A stretch of DNA of 64,000 nucleotides from Rhodococcus sp. SGAir0479 (lineage in GTDB: Bacteria; Actinomycetota; Actinomycetes; Mycobacteriales; Mycobacteriaceae), in the NCBI RefSeq assembly GCF_005484805.1, contig NZ_CP039432.1:2046001-2110000 (forward strand). Direction: 5' to 3'. Positions 31,243 to 64,000 of this stretch are shown here, in pieces. Position 1 is the first letter of the stretch; each line of letters opens with the position of its first letter. The notes below the pieces were generated by a model. That model had not been told where the DNA came from. It saw only the letters and a list, made by a program, of their open reading frames with translations, and searched no databases. The translations under genes were made by a program, and so were the position numbers.

Positions 31243-32595
31243 TCACCTCAAGCTGTCGGCCGGGTCCGCGACCGTCAGGTCGCAGTCCGTCTCGTCGAAT
31301 GTACGCGACGGACCCGGTCCCGTGCTGCGCGTCTCGAACCGCACCGTCACCACCCCGTGCCCGGCGCCCTGCACCCAGCCGTGCCCGTACTCGGGGTGCG
31401 CGACGTCGAGTCCGGGCCGCCACCCGGGCGTGGGTCCGGACAGTACGTCGAACCCCGAATCCTGCTCGGTGTCATCACTTCCCACGTCCGGAACTGCCTG
31501 ATCGAGTTCCGGGAACAGTGAGCCCTGACTGACCGCGGACAGGCCGCCGAAGCCGACACCGACCAGCCGGACCGGCCCGATCTCGAGCGGGTCGAGCACC
31601 TGACGCTGCGCGGTGGCAGTGAGGACCCGGGCGTCGGTCGTCGCGTACGGCAGCGTGAGCGAGCGGGTGAGGATGCTCATGTCGGACTTGCGCAGCTTGA
31701 GCACCACGGTGCGCGCCGCGCGGCCGTCCCGCTCGAGGCGCCGGAACGCCGCCGCCGCGCTGGCGTCGACCGCGCGGCGCAGATCGGCCATGGTGACGAT
31801 GTCCTGCGCGTACGTCGTCTCCGCGCTCACCTGTTTCGCGTCGGCACGCTCGGCCACGGGCCGGTCGTCGATGCCGCGCGCCAGGCGCTGCAGGCTCGGC
31901 CCCACGGTCGCGCCGAGGACGGACACCACCTCCGGTTCCGGCAACCGGGCCAGCGCGCCGATCGTCTCGATCCCCAGGCGTTTGAGCTTCTCCTCGGCCA
32001 CCGGACCGACGCCCCACAGTTTGCGGACCGGCAATGCCGCCATCAGCTCCTGCTGCACATCGGGTGAGACGACCGTGATGCCGTTCGGCTTGGCGAGGCC
32101 GGAGGCGATCTTGGCCACCTGCTTGCCGGGGCCGGCGCCGATGGACGCGACGAGCCCGGTTTCCGCCAGCACCAACGCCCGCAACTCCTCGCAGTACCGC
32201 AGGACCTCCGCCTTGCCCGCGCCGGCCAGTTCCTTCGGTTCACCGAACGCCTCGTCGAGCGAAAGTTGTTCGAGCACCGGCATCTTCACCCGCAATGCGT
32301 CGAACACCCGACGGCTCAGCTCCCCGTACAGCGCGCCGCGTGGAGGCAGCACCACCGCGGCCGCACCGACGAGCCGACGCGCCTGGTGCATCGGCATCGC
32401 CGACCGCGCGCCGAACACCCGCGCCTCGTAGCTGGCTCCTGCCACCACACCCCGACCCCCGAGCCCGCCCACCAGGACCGGCCGCCCGCGCAGCGTCGGC
32501 CGGGTGAGCTGCTCGACGGATGCGAAGAACGCATCCATGTCGAGGTGCAGCACCCAGCGACGACTGCGCGTGGGATCGGGGACGGCGGCGATCAT
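31243..32595 (-). CDS. dinB: DNA polymerase IV (DinB/DinX type)
   Basis: 450 aa Y-family translesion polymerase. The catalytic acids are D19 ([13 protein letters not shown]) and D114/E115 (SLDEAF). A helix-hairpin-helix thumb segment ([19 protein letters not shown], about 205) and little-finger domain follow. QGSLFP (about 356-361) is a plausible beta-clamp binding motif. The C-terminal extension ([24 protein letters not shown]) is typical of the actinobacterial DinX branch such as Rv1537. The ATG at 32595 gives the family-like N-terminus but no Shine-Dalgarno is evident; an upstream in-frame TTG is possible. I see no LexA box upstream. Confidence 0.93.
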
Positions 32596-59318: not shown

Positions 59319-59750
59319 TCAGAAGATCCCTTCGAGCGCCTCGTCTCTGGCTTGTGAGTAGCTTTCTTCGTGCTCCGCGAGGTAGTCCGCCCACGCCTGG
59401 GCGTCCCAGATCTCCAGGAAGTCGACCGATCCGATCACCACGCAGTCCTTGGAGAGGCCCGCGTAGCGGCGGTGGTCCGCAGACAACGTGATCCGTCCCT
59501 GCGCGTCGGGGTGCTGCTCGTCGGTGCCCGACGCGAGACCGCGCACGAATGCGCGGGCCTGCGGATTGCTGCGGGAAGCGGCGGCGGCACGACGTGCGAG
59601 TGCGGTGAACTCCTCGCGGGGGTACACCGCAAGGCTGTGGTCCTGACCTTTCGTGACCATCAAACCTCCCGCCAACGCATCCCGGAACTTCGCGGGCAGC
59701 GTCAGCCGCCCCTTGTCGTCGAGCTTCGGCGTGTAGGTACCGAGAAACAA
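59319..59750 (-). CDS. mraZ: transcriptional regulator MraZ
   Basis: 143 aa, two AbrB-like halves with DDKGRLTLP (about 11-19) and DAQGRITLS (about 84-92). It binds the promoter upstream of its own gene and controls the dcw cluster. The TTG start has GGGAGGTG 7 bases upstream. The three GTGG boxes in the promoter are its likely operator. Confidence 0.95.
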
Positions 59751-60277: not shown

Positions 60278-60697
60278 CTATTCCTGCTCGAATCTCCTGC
60301 GGAACCGGTCCTCCATACGGGAGGAGAACCCACCGCCGCCCTTCTTGCTCCCATGGGACTTACGCGGATGCGATCCGCCCGCAGAACCGTCTCCGTCCGG
60401 AACCGCTGCCAGACGACTCTTCCCGTTGCCGAGCAGGAAGAGAATTCCGGCACCGAACATCACGACGAAGCCGATCAAACTGATGATCGGGAATTCGCCC
60501 AACCTCACATTCACAGCCACGCCCACGACCAGAAGGACGAGACCCAGCACGAAAAGGGCCACGGCCTGCAACCGGCGCTTGCCGGACGGCGCACGCATGC
60601 GGCCGCCTCGCACCGTCGACGCGAACTTGGGATCCTCGGCGTAGAGCGCGCTCTCGATCTGGTCGAGCATGCGCTGCTCGTGCTCGGAGAGTGGCAC
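60278..60697 (-). CDS. DUF3040 family membrane protein
   Basis: 139 aa. The N-terminal PLSEHEQRMLDQIESALYAEDPKF segment is the DUF3040 signature. Two hydrophobic helices (about 46-64, 66-90) and a basic Gly/Ser/Lys-rich C-terminus follow, giving a small inner-membrane protein. A gene of this family precedes mraZ in mycobacteria too (Rv2169c), but its function is unknown. The GTG at 60697 has GGGGGAGG upstream; the upstream frame was rejected. Confidence 0.88.
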   Translation of the reverse strand: MPLSEHEQRMLDQIESALYAEDPKFASTVRGGRMRAPSGKRRLQAVALFVLGLVLLVVGVAVNVRLGEFPIISLIGFVVMFGAGILFLLGNGKSRLAAVPDGDGSAGGSHPRKSHGSKKGGGGFSSRMEDRFRRRFEQE

Positions 60698-60779
60698 GGT
60701 ACCTCCCCCGGCACTAAAGAGTTGGCACCTCACCGCGGTGCGGAGAGGCGGGTAACGGACTGACGGTTACCTGGAATCG

Positions 60780-60901: not shown

Positions 60902-61417
60902 CTACGCGGAGATCCCCGGATACGTGTCGTCGGCACCCTGTTCGGCGAGGAAATCCTCGACGGCGGTGAGGAACCTCCCCGCCTCCGCATAGAAGCGGTC
61001 GGCATCGACATCCGACACGCCGCGGTCGACGCCGGCCTCGATCGCCGCCCGCAACGCCGAGTGCGCGGCGAAGTAGTCGGCCCACTCACCGAACTGGGGT
61101 GCCGTACGCGCCATGAGCACCCAGGCGCTGCGCGAGCGCGGCCGTCGCGCCGGAGCCTGCTGTCCCTCCGACGCCGCGAGCACCGCGGCGGCACCCTTGA
61201 GCGCCGCGAGATAGGCGCACCGGAAACGCTCGGCGGGCGCCCCGGCCCCGACCGACTCCGAGAGCAGCCCGTCCGCCCGGCGCAGAAGTGCGCCCGCCCG
61301 CACGAGCGCCCCGCGGCGTGACCGTCCCCCGTCCGCGCACGGCGCCGCTCCGGGACGCCGCGCGCCCGACACGATCGATGCCGACCGCGGCCGCATCTTC
61401 GATACTGCATCCGACAT
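60902..61417 (-). CDS. HEPN-domain protein, SAV_6107-like
   Basis: 171 aa, all-helical. Resembles the actinobacterial SAV_6107-family HEPN domain proteins, which lie next to the DUF3040/mraZ genes in relatives. The family R-x4-6-H ribonuclease motif is not present: the only His follows the nearest Arg by 15 residues, so it is probably not an active HEPN RNase. The ATG at 61417 gives MSDAVSK and follows GGAG; the frame is open to 61513, which would place its N-terminus in the SOS box region. Function unknown, possibly SOS-linked through the divergent promoter. Confidence 0.78.
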   Translation of the reverse strand: MSDAVSKMRPRSASIVSGARRPGAAPCADGGRSRRGALVRAGALLRRADGLLSESVGAGAPAERFRCAYLAALKGAAAVLAASEGQQAPARRPRSRSAWVLMARTAPQFGEWADYFAAHSALRAAIEAGVDRGVSDVDADRFYAEAGRFLTAVEDFLAEQGADDTYPGISA

Positions 61418-61504
61418 GACTCCGAGCACCTCCCACCGCTTGCGGGTCCAGGGCCGGCGATCCGGCGATGATTCGCTTCCCTCGAACATCACCGGATCGC
61501 CGAT

Positions 61505-61522
61505 GTCGAACACATGTTCGAC
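61505..61522. promoter_or_regulatory. LexA (SOS) box
   Basis: The sequence contains TCGAACACATGTTCGA (61506-61521), a perfect fit to the actinobacterial LexA box TCGAAC-N4-GTTCGA, and the symmetry extends one base on both sides. It lies between the divergent HEPN gene (start 61417) and GNAT gene (start 61583). TATTCA and TATAGC, -10-like hexamers on the plus strand, follow at 61524 and 61531, so LexA would overlap the -35 region of the GNAT promoter. Confidence 0.8.
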
Positions 61523-61530
61523 CTATTCAA

Positions 61531-61536
61531 TATAGC
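61531..61536 (+). promoter_or_regulatory. -10 candidate of the GNAT-crtO-cruF operon
   Basis: TATAGC sits just downstream of the LexA box and would give a 5' leader of about 40 bases before the ATG at 61583. TATTCA at 61524-61529 is an alternative. The -35 position would overlap the LexA box. Confidence 0.4.
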
Positions 61537-61582
61537 TGGACCCACCGACAGGACGTCAAGAGAGAAGAGGGTGAGCCCGAGC

Positions 61583-62224
61583 ATGGACTCCACCGGCAGT
61601 ACCGGCGCGAGCCCCGGCGAGCGCCCGGATCCCCGACCGGACGCGGCCGCGCCGGTCGTTCTGGAATTGTCGGCGGCCGAGATGCGTGCGCGACTGCCCG
61701 AGGCGCTGGCGATCTACGTGGCCGCGATGGGCTACCCGCGCGGCACCGAGTACCACCGCGCCCCCCTCTGGGCCGAGCACACGCGACGTGCGGGGTGGCG
61801 CGCGGTCGGCGCCGTCCGGTCCGATCCCGCCGACCCGGACCGCCCTGCCACGCTGGTGGCCATCGCCTACGGGTACCGGGGTGCGCCGGACCAGTGGTGG
61901 CAGCAGCAGGTTCGCCACGGCATGCAGTCGACGGGCTGGAGCCGCGACCAGATCGAGTACGTGCTCGGCAACTACTTCGAGCTGACCGAACTGCACGTCC
62001 ACCCCAGCGCCCAGGGACATCGTCTGGGCGAACGACTGCTGCACCGACTGCTCACCGGCCGTCCCGAGCGCGGAGTCCTGCTCTCCACACCCGAGGTGGC
62101 GGGCGAGGACAACCGGGCGTGGCGGCTGTACCGCCGTACCGGATTCCGGGACGTCGTCCGCCACTTCACCTTCGCGGGCGACCGACGGCCGTTCGCAGTT
62201 CTAGGCCGGGGGTTGCCGCTGTGA
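61583..62224 (+). CDS. GNAT-family acetyltransferase
   Basis: 213 aa. Resembles the M. tuberculosis Rv2170 acetyltransferase, which also lies beside the DUF3040/mraZ region. The core includes YFELTELHVHPSAQGHRLGERLLHRLLTG (about 130-158), whose QGHRLGE is the acetyl-CoA binding loop, and GEDNRAWRLYRRTGFRDV (about 173-190). It transfers acetyl groups from acetyl-CoA to an unknown acceptor, perhaps protein lysines. The start is uncertain: ATG at 61583 is chosen; GTG at 61571 is possible, and the ATG at 61514 lies inside the LexA box. Overlaps crtO in GTGA. Confidence 0.85.
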   Translation: MDSTGSTGASPGERPDPRPDAAAPVVLELSAAEMRARLPEALAIYVAAMGYPRGTEYHRAPLWAEHTRRAGWRAVGAVRSDPADPDRPATLVAIAYGYRGAPDQWWQQQVRHGMQSTGWSRDQIEYVLGNYFELTELHVHPSAQGHRLGERLLHRLLTGRPERGVLLSTPEVAGEDNRAWRLYRRTGFRDVVRHFTFAGDRRPFAVLGRGLPL

Positions 62225-63807
62225 TCGATACCGTCGTCGTCGGATCGGGCCACAACGCCCTTGTCTCGGCCTGCTACCTCGCACGAGAGGGCTGGTCGGT
62301 GGAGGTCATCGAACGCGACAGCGTCGTCGGTGGCGCCGTCTCGACGGTCGAGCGGTTCCCCGGACACCGTGTCGACCGGGGCTCGTCGGCGCACATCATG
62401 ATCCGCCACAGCGGAATCGTCGAGGAGCTCGACCTCGCCGCGCACGGGCTGCGCTACATCGACTGCGACCCATGGGCGTTCGCGCCCGCGCCGGCCGGAT
62501 CGGATCGTCCCGGCATCGTCTTCCACCGCGACCTCGATCGCACGTGCCGGTCGATCGAGGAGTCGTGCGGCAGCGCGGACGCGGACGCCTACCGGCGGTT
62601 CGTCGCGACGTGGGGGCCGCGGACGCAACGGGTCATGCGCGCGTTCGCCGCGCCCCCGACCGGAGGGCGGCTGCTGCGCTCGTTCTGGGGTCTCGACACG
62701 GCCGGCGGCGCGGGCGCACTCTCACGAGAGTTCCTCACCACGGGCGACGCCCTGCTCGACGAGTACTTCGACAGCGAACCGCTCAAGGCCGCGCTGGCCT
62801 GGTTCGGCGCCCAGTCCGGGCCGCCGATGTCCGAGCCGGGCACCGCGCCGATGGTCGGGTTCGCCGCCCTGATGCACACCCTTCCGCCGGGTCGTGCAGT
62901 CGGCGGCAGCGGCGCGCTCACCGCGGCGCTGGCCCGCCGCCTCGAATCCGACGGCGGCACCGTCACACTCGGGGACGGCGTGACCGAACTGCGGCGCGGC
63001 GACGACGGGTGGACGGTGGTCACCGAGTCGGGCCGCCGGATCCGGGCGCGTACGGTGATCGCCGGGTGTCACGTGCTGACGACCCTCGACCTGCTCGAGC
63101 GGGGCGGGTACGACCGGGAGACCCTCGCGGGATGGCGCCGGCGCATCCGGGTGGGACCGGGGATCGGCATGGTGCTGCGACTGGGCACCGATGCGCTGCC
63201 GACGTATCCGAGCGCACCGAGCGAGGCGGCCGCGACGTCGGGGCTGCAGCTGCTCGTCTCCGATCGCGCACAACTGCGGACGGCGCACGGTGCGGCCCTG
63301 GCAGGTGAACTGCCGCCGCAGCCGGCGGTACTCGCGATGAGTTTCAGCGGCATCGACCCCACGATCTCCCCCGCCGGCGAGCACCAGGTGACGTTGTGGT
63401 CGCAATGGCACCCGTACGCGCTGTCCGGCGGCCGGTCCTGGGCCGATCTCGGGGCGACCGAGGCCGACCGCATCGTCGCGGGCGTGGACGCGCTCGCACC
63501 CGGCTTCGCGGACAGCATCCGGCACCGGTACGTACAGACCCCCGCCGACATCGAGCGCGAGATGGGCCTGCTCGGTGGCAACGTGATGCACGTGGAGATG
63601 TCCCTCGACCAGATGTTCATGTGGCGCCCCCTCCCGGAGCTCGCCGGGCACCGCGTCCCGCACGCCGAGGCCCTCTACCTGACCGGCGCGTCCACACATC
63701 CCGGCGGCGGAGTGTCGGGCTCGAGCGGGCGCAGCGCCGCCCGCGTCGCGCTCGCGGACGCGAGTGGCGGACGGCTGCGGCGGGCGCTGCGCAAGACGCT
63801 GCGATGA
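62221..63807 (+). CDS. crtO: carotenoid ketolase CrtO (phytoene desaturase-like)
   Basis: 528 aa FAD-dependent oxidoreductase. The N-terminal VVVGSGHNALVSACYLAREG (4-23) is the FAD dinucleotide fold, and the C-terminal YLTGASTHPGGGVSGSSGRSAA completes the cofactor site. Length and sequence throughout closely resemble what I recall of R. erythropolis CrtO, a ketolase that adds a 4-keto group to beta- or gamma-carotene; related CrtI-type desaturases share the fold. GTG start overlaps the GNAT stop, and its ATGA stop overlaps cruF, so it is in one coupled operon. Membrane-associated action on carotenoids expected. Confidence 0.85.
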   Translation: MIDTVVVGSGHNALVSACYLAREGWSVEVIERDSVVGGAVSTVERFPGHRVDRGSSAHIMIRHSGIVEELDLAAHGLRYIDCDPWAFAPAPAGSDRPGIVFHRDLDRTCRSIEESCGSADADAYRRFVATWGPRTQRVMRAFAAPPTGGRLLRSFWGLDTAGGAGALSREFLTTGDALLDEYFDSEPLKAALAWFGAQSGPPMSEPGTAPMVGFAALMHTLPPGRAVGGSGALTAALARRLESDGGTVTLGDGVTELRRGDDGWTVVTESGRRIRARTVIAGCHVLTTLDLLERGGYDRETLAGWRRRIRVGPGIGMVLRLGTDALPTYPSAPSEAAATSGLQLLVSDRAQLRTAHGAALAGELPPQPAVLAMSFSGIDPTISPAGEHQVTLWSQWHPYALSGGRSWADLGATEADRIVAGVDALAPGFADSIRHRYVQTPADIEREMGLLGGNVMHVEMSLDQMFMWRPLPELAGHRVPHAEALYLTGASTHPGGGVSGSSGRSAARVALADASGGRLRRALRKTLR

Positions 63808-64000
63808 GCACCCGGTCTCCGCTCGTGCCGGTCTCCGCGGTGGTCGCGGCGGCGGCGGTCGGGGCGCAGATCGTCTACCCCCTCGTCGACGGGCGCGTCC
63901 GCGACGTCGTGACCGTCGCGGTCGTCGCCCTGCTCGCCGCCGCGTCGATCGTGCACGCGGTGGGCACCCGCGGCGGGCGGTGGGCCGCCGGCATGGTCGT
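63804..64000 (+). CDS. cruF: carotenoid hydratase CruF-like (partial)
   Basis: The first 65 residues are visible; the gene runs off the window. Hydrophobic segments GAQIVYPLVDG and VTVAVVALLAAASIVHAVGTRGGRW match the start of the DUF422/CruF family, which hydrates gamma-carotene at C-1'. The ATG overlaps the crtO stop (ATGA). Assignment rests on a short N-terminus and the crtO context. Confidence 0.65.
   Translation, partial: MSTRSPLVPVSAVVAAAAVGAQIVYPLVDGRVRDVVTVAVVALLAAASIVHAVGTRGGRWAAGMV

Follow-up and report, generated by a model that had tools for sequence, protein, structure and literature searches.

Which gene is served by a perfect SOS (LexA) box that lies between two divergent genes, one of them encoding a HEPN protein and the other an acetyltransferase followed by carotenoid genes? 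This question is raised by a locus at the end of the window, i.e., the whole 64-kb stretch of Rhodococcus sp. SGAir0479 DNA that was analyzed. On its minus strand lies the HEPN_SAV_6107 gene (60902..61417; 171 aa), the inferred target of the box, which starts with an ATG at 61417 behind GGGAGG and is followed by a DUF3040/SCO2097-family gene (60278..60733, minus strand) and then by mraZ (59319..59750, minus strand). On the plus strand lies the GNAT acetyltransferase gene (61583..62224, with a GTG at 61571 as another possible start), which is presumably Rv2170-like, as judged by its position. Its stop is overlapped by 4 bp by the start of the gene of a CrtO-like FAD-dependent oxidoreductase (62221..63807, plus strand; NF045689 at 265 bits, cut-off 1000), and the start of a CruF-like carotenoid biosynthesis gene (63804..64000, plus strand; PF04240 on L007:4305-5126) then runs past the end of the window. 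The best explanation, to which a probability of about 0.88 is given, is that the box is the predicted LexA operator of the HEPN_SAV_6107 gene.

The LexA Box in the Genome and the Genus

The box (TCGAAC-ACAT-GTTCGA, TCGAACACATGTTCGA; 61506..61521, no strand assigned) lies between the minus-strand HEPN gene and the plus-strand GNAT gene, at or just 3′ of the inferred HEPN transcription start, and its other end is 61 bp from the GNAT ATG (61583). It agrees fully with the actinobacterial LexA consensus TCGAAC-N4-GTTCGA, taken here from the first-pass annotation, whose claim of a perfect box is thus borne out, and with one further base per side it reads GTCGAACA-CA-TGTTCGAC (61505-61522). This is the sole LexA-type match without mismatches in the 64-kb window, and no perfect box arose in 100 dinucleotide shuffles of the window. 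Chance sites do occur, as one of the 14 perfect sites of the genome is intragenic, within a short-chain dehydrogenase gene (L014), and is probably fortuitous. Nevertheless, the shuffles contained no box, and the box is retained in all 14 genomes of the genus and at 111 of the 144 HEPN loci; both results speak against a chance match at this locus, which had already been held unlikely, and this explanation was rejected, its probability being close to nil.

Across the genome, the 14 perfect sites are among a total of 92 sites at no more than one mismatch, versus 10 for the reversed pattern. Ten of the perfect sites precede DUF222-HNH/13E12 repeat-like genes (L001-L006 and L010-L013), two of which (L001, L002) were identified by Pfam and the other eight by eye, from a shared N-terminal sequence; one of these genes (L006) is found behind its perfect box just outside the window start. 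Another perfect site (L008) follows an HNH_5-like gene and precedes a RyR-domain gene, and yet another (L009) lies approximately 240 bp before the PHP domain of dnaE2. The genome also encodes LexA (L015, TIGR00498), with two 1-mismatch boxes upstream of its gene, and one such box is present both upstream of recA (L016, named by eye) and at imuA' (L126). Given these boxes at dnaE2, lexA, recA and imuA', the motif appears to be in use at the classical SOS genes of this genome.

The conservation of the box across Rhodococcus genomes, which the first-pass annotation had proposed as a check, was confirmed, as each of the 14 genus genomes, that of the window among them, has GNAT with a perfect box upstream of it. 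Both arms of the box and the adjacent TATATT are invariant in this comparison and the spacer varies; in four of the genomes, there are only two perfect boxes in total, one of which is the HEPN/GNAT box.

Which of the Two Divergent Genes the Box Tracks

The two sides of the box can be told apart in genomes in which one of the genes is missing. At the level of the order, GNAT is present in 382 of 397 genomes, and 102 GNAT loci (L021-L123 without L099) were examined, with the absence of HEPN judged on the stretch fetched for each locus. Of the 28 GNAT loci in which no HEPN gene was detected, 27 have no box at up to two mismatches within 1000 bp upstream of GNAT. The exception (L093) has a 1-mismatch box, probably a relic, and in another of these loci (L084), a perfect box is found farther away, 2969 bp before GNAT. 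The fifteen loci examined in g2 (presumably Mycobacterium) contain DUF3040 and GNAT and lack HEPN, CrtO and the box, and the class-wide search found no PF18726 match in 20 g2 genomes.

The comparison also separates HEPN from CrtO, and this bears on the possibility that the box controls both sides, i.e., that LexA also represses GNAT-crtO-cruF and carotenoid modification is damage-inducible. In its favor are the 61 bp between box and GNAT, the overlap of GNAT and crtO, and the joint presence of HEPN, the box and CrtO in the genus of the window and in further genera of its family. The box was not found, however, in the two loci with GNAT and CrtO and no detected HEPN (L111, L119), and it is kept in HEPN loci without CrtO beside GNAT, both in L065 (1 mismatch) and L067 and in all 18 such loci of f12 (16 perfect, 2 with one mismatch). 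Furthermore, where a YbaK-like gene (by eye) is found between GNAT and HEPN (L080, L085, L088, L096), the box lies on the HEPN side. As the promoter hexamers also face HEPN, as described below, control of both sides is quite unlikely. The link between SOS and carotenoids that the first-pass annotation had raised was thus rejected, as the box follows HEPN rather than CrtO, although the short distance to the GNAT ATG means that LexA may have a side effect on GNAT in the window.

The association of the box with its predicted target, the HEPN gene, extends beyond the order. PF18726 (HEPN_SAV_6107) was found in 238 of 393 class genomes, from 90 of 123 genera, and one of 14 control genomes, C. glutamicum, also has it. 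In 144 HEPN loci, which were picked mostly as one or few per genus and share ancestry (L007, which duplicates L021, was dropped), the search covered 900 bp ahead of the HEPN domain. A perfect box is present in 91 of these loci and a box at no more than one mismatch in 111, versus means of 0 and 0.6 in five rounds of dinucleotide shuffling, and no box was found in 133 control stretches 350-1250 bp downstream of HEPN. When the 13 congeners and the 19 loci of g90 (presumably Streptomyces) are set aside, the counts are 78 perfect and 98 at no more than one mismatch of 112. The 33 loci without a box at up to one mismatch within 900 bp include all 19 of g90, which have a PafBC-like motif only, as well as 7 of g3 and 4 of g7 (presumably Corynebacterium), all with 2-mismatch sites; the remainder are L104, L144 and L151, and in L104 and L151, perfect boxes lie just past the 900-bp limit. 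Read across these genomes, the box tracks the HEPN_SAV_6107 gene, and not crtO.

The Direction and Elements of the Promoter

The -10-like hexamers noted beside the box by the first-pass annotation are indeed present, and to this can be added their orientation, as the TATATT conserved in the genus (61529..61534, minus strand), read from 61534 to 61529, points to HEPN as the predicted -10 hexamer of its promoter. A PafBC-type element, CTGTCGGTG (61543..61551, minus strand), lies 8 nt upstream of this -10, and the order read towards HEPN is therefore CTGTCGGTG-N8-TATATT, 7 nt, and the box. In the 111 boxed loci, a TAnnnT before the box faces HEPN in 86 and the other direction in 5, and neither TTGA nor a PafBC element was found on the non-HEPN side of the box in any of the 111. 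These figures weigh against damage control of the GNAT-crtO-cruF side, which the first-pass annotation had considered, as does the missing box in GNAT loci without HEPN; its view that a LexA operator lies in a divergent promoter, HEPN being among the possible targets, is supported as a prediction from sequence. The PafBC element accompanies the -10 in 32 of the boxed loci and TTGA lies 16-18 nt before it in 35, with both in 2; the TAnnnT stands without either in 21, and 25 loci have no TAnnnT. For comparison, 7200 anchors placed at random in these sequences yielded TAnnnT at 161, TTGA at 55 and PafBC at 41.

For the RecA-independent promoter, which is now attributed to PafBC, the published motif is tTGTCRgtg-8nt-TannnT (PMC5656591; similar in PMC8151990), and the promoter of the window (L021) agrees with it at 11 of 12 scored positions. 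The core pattern has eight matches in the genome, versus none for the reversed control, with one at the HEPN promoter of the window, one before uvrA (L128, by eye), one before an exonuclease-domain gene (L129/L224), and five to which no repair gene was assigned. A score of at least 11 of 12 is reached within 900 bp upstream in 63 of the 144 HEPN loci, and in none of the antisense (0/144), downstream or shuffled controls. Of the 35 loci in which a box is preceded by such a site at 15-60 nt, 29 have a spacing of 30-32 nt, and 14 of these 29 belong to the genus of the window. In the host genome, PafA (TIGR03686) stands directly before two WYL proteins, the putative PafB and PafC, with TatA (by eye) next; none of the curated PafB or PafC models matched these two proteins.

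Given the PafBC motif match beside the LexA box, the HEPN promoter in the window looks like a dual LexA/PafBC switch. Both inputs likewise converge on one gene in the mycobacterial recA promoters P1 (PafBC) and P2 (LexA) (PMC11804915, PMC5656591, PMC8223512), whereas in the window the PafBC element, the -10 and the LexA box share one promoter within 46 bp. As a side observation, TTGTCRGTG-N9-A-N3-T has 58 and 64 matches in two genomes of g90 (G548 and G498), whereas the reversed pattern has 1 and 2, and a PafBC-like site scoring at least 11 precedes HEPN in 17 of 19 g90 loci (among L138-L164). The motif counts suggest a PafBC-type regulon in this group; for S. venezuelae, an initial search described in PMC9380542 suggested that the motif is not conserved.

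The HEPN Protein

The assignment of the window protein to its family by PF18726, whose cut-off of 27 bits is clearly exceeded at 108 bits, is accompanied by a HEPN fold, as its AlphaFold model (16 sequences) is all-helical with a pLDDT of 83.7 and its best Foldseek matches in the PDB are HEPN domains, at a probability of 1.00 and a top E of 0.13, with none below 0.001; searching the PDB by sequence, the best E was only 0.65. The active site of HEPN RNase toxins is R-x4-6-H, a motif that is absent from the window protein (by eye), in which a single H is found, in FAAHSAL. This bears on the alternative that the protein is a toxin or defense RNase released by damage in an abortive response, which is suggested by the many HEPN proteins that are RNase toxins (PMC3710099). 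In the survey table of the same source, the conserved-motif entry is "No" for HEPN-M (SAV_6107), the family to which the window protein is alike by its 108 bits and its structural matches, and the row of that table shows no gene context. The flanking genes of the window are not MNT, PADLOC gave no match, so that HEPN as a defense gene was rejected, and a family present in more than half of the class genomes also argues against a toxin, which is considered quite improbable. When viral contigs were scanned once with the HEPN protein of the window, by a method that picks up close relatives only, seven pattern matches and no relative were obtained.

In the window, the HEPN gene neighbors DUF3040 and mraZ, and the dcw cluster next door invites the reading that its product is an SOS division checkpoint. 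The same order, i.e., GNAT on the opposite strand, HEPN, DUF3040 and mraZ, is found in 15 named Corynebacterium loci, with DUF3040 in 15 and mraZ in 14 of the 15. On the other hand, 41 of the 144 HEPN loci lie before polymerase genes, mostly away from mraZ within the stretches covered, and a checkpoint role is therefore deemed unlikely.

The gene order in Corynebacterium also connects the window with published data, as the conserved hypothetical gene cg2381 is counted in the C. glutamicum LexA regulon, rises after ciprofloxacin (M 3.86), as does recA, and is three locus numbers from mraZ (cg2378) (PMC5055667). Given the gene order near mraZ, cg2381 is probably the orthologue of the HEPN gene, and less likely that of GNAT. 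Proximity to mraZ is shared by both genes; the regulon listing and the ciprofloxacin induction are those of cg2381, which is neither called HEPN nor linked to polymerases where it appears in PMC5055667. The boxes of the 15 Corynebacterium loci are degenerate, with the best site at one mismatch in 5, two in 8 and three in 2.

Translesion Polymerases Downstream of HEPN

In the 41 loci mentioned above, a translesion-type polymerase gene lies downstream on the HEPN strand, in what appear from the gene order to be operons, with the polymerase families confirmed for example loci; among the 39 loci with more than 3 kb downstream, a polymerase is present in 26 and absent in 13. DinB is found in 8 loci (e.g., L123, L177), possibly with intervening genes, and ImuA'-ImuB in 4 (L147, L186, L188, L189). 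In two of the latter (L186, L189), HEPN comes first behind a perfect LexA box and is followed by ImuA', ImuB and DnaE2, i.e., the genes of the mutasome, from which the HEPN protein differs in its family.

A DnaE-type polymerase is found downstream of HEPN in 29 loci, with DUF6504 ahead of HEPN in 27 (e.g., L182, L168), and the order DUF6504-HEPN-DnaE behind a LexA box was observed in L182, L168, L190 and L202. The NCBIfam scores of these four for DNA polymerase III alpha and error-prone polymerase (603/572, 572/567, 618/607 and 626/607 bits, respectively) are nearly equal, versus a clear 447/836 bits for the dnaE2 of the host genome, and the polymerase is for this reason called a third DnaE type. 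In the open-access literature searched, there was nothing on HEPN together with DnaE2 and ImuB, and nothing on DUF6504; HEPN appeared alongside SAV_6107 in a single paper, and alongside LexA, the SOS response and Actinobacteria in a single comparative-genomics paper of 2009.

No polymerase follows HEPN in the window, where DUF3040 and mraZ come next, and the host imuA'-imuB (L126) and dnaE2 (L009) lie away from the HEPN locus; a Y-family (IMS) polymerase domain was also seen in the window at 32101-32544 (minus strand), approximately 29 kb from HEPN. Given the position of the HEPN gene upstream of translesion polymerases in other lineages, the role that appears most likely, at somewhat better than even odds, is that of an accessory factor of damage tolerance or SOS mutagenesis.

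A Possible Mechanism of Regulation

What the sequence shows is the box and its conservation ahead of the HEPN gene, a promoter that faces HEPN and has the PafBC motif, the neighboring genes, LexA and the PafA-WYL-WYL locus; from this we infer LexA binding, damage induction and the role of the HEPN protein. Without damage, a LexA dimer would cover the HEPN transcription start and keep HEPN off. Following damage, single-stranded DNA would lead to RecA filaments and the self-cleavage of LexA, and, wherever the PafBC motif occurs, as it does in the window, would also act through PafBC by enabling the housekeeping RNA polymerase to work from the TGTCGGTG-N8-TATATT promoter. The HEPN protein would then be made.

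A more specific proposal, offered tentatively and with the odds against it, is that HEPN_SAV_6107 is a missing translesion subunit, i.e., a non-catalytic adaptor under joint LexA/PafBC control that would serve DinB, ImuB-DnaE2 or the third DnaE and would adjust its own level by binding to the GRGGGAAGC hairpin of its leader. The analysis points to a little-studied HEPN family, widespread in the class, that probably belongs to the DNA-damage response of actinobacteria; its compact promoter looks as if both known damage sensors could read it, and its gene is tied by genomic position to mutagenic polymerases. Actinobacterial SOS mutagenesis may hold an overlooked component, which is now directly testable.

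The Leader Hairpin of the HEPN Transcript

The leader of the HEPN transcript contains a predicted stem-loop (61455..61502, minus strand) with the loop GAGGGAAGC and a one-base bulge, and in a stretch that includes the palindromic box, the leader folds at -58.7 kcal/mol, versus -40.2 kcal/mol for shuffles (z -5.3). The motif [AG]GGGAAGC occurs in 63 of the 144 HEPN leaders, 33 of which have at least 8 of 10 flanking pairs in a fixed register; the window leader has 6 of 10 due to its bulge, and counts by other criteria give a hairpin in 67 of 144 leaders when fold energy is used and in 45 when a stem rule is applied. Alignment A5 was made of 29 of the 33 leaders, leaving out two near duplicates (L029, L071) and two with few pairs (L030, L190). 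In this alignment, 13 of 14 pairs have compensatory changes and 97% of the cells pair, a percentage inflated by the choice of rows for their pairing, and covariation is 0.87, versus 0.23 when shuffled.

Among 12 loci searched against Rfam, nothing reached the gathering score, with Scr3202 at 23.2 bits (gathering 52) and DUF3800-XI at 14 (gathering 37.8) below threshold in the window stretch. Model R1 finds the window hairpin (61459-61497) at 38.1 bits as the only match in the host genome at an E of 0.01 or better, and it has a match in 11 of the 21 relatives searched, all within the genus, with none in G010 and G012, which are also of the genus. In three congeners (G001, G003, G009), a second match was observed at unrelated genes, and the hairpin is therefore not unique to HEPN.
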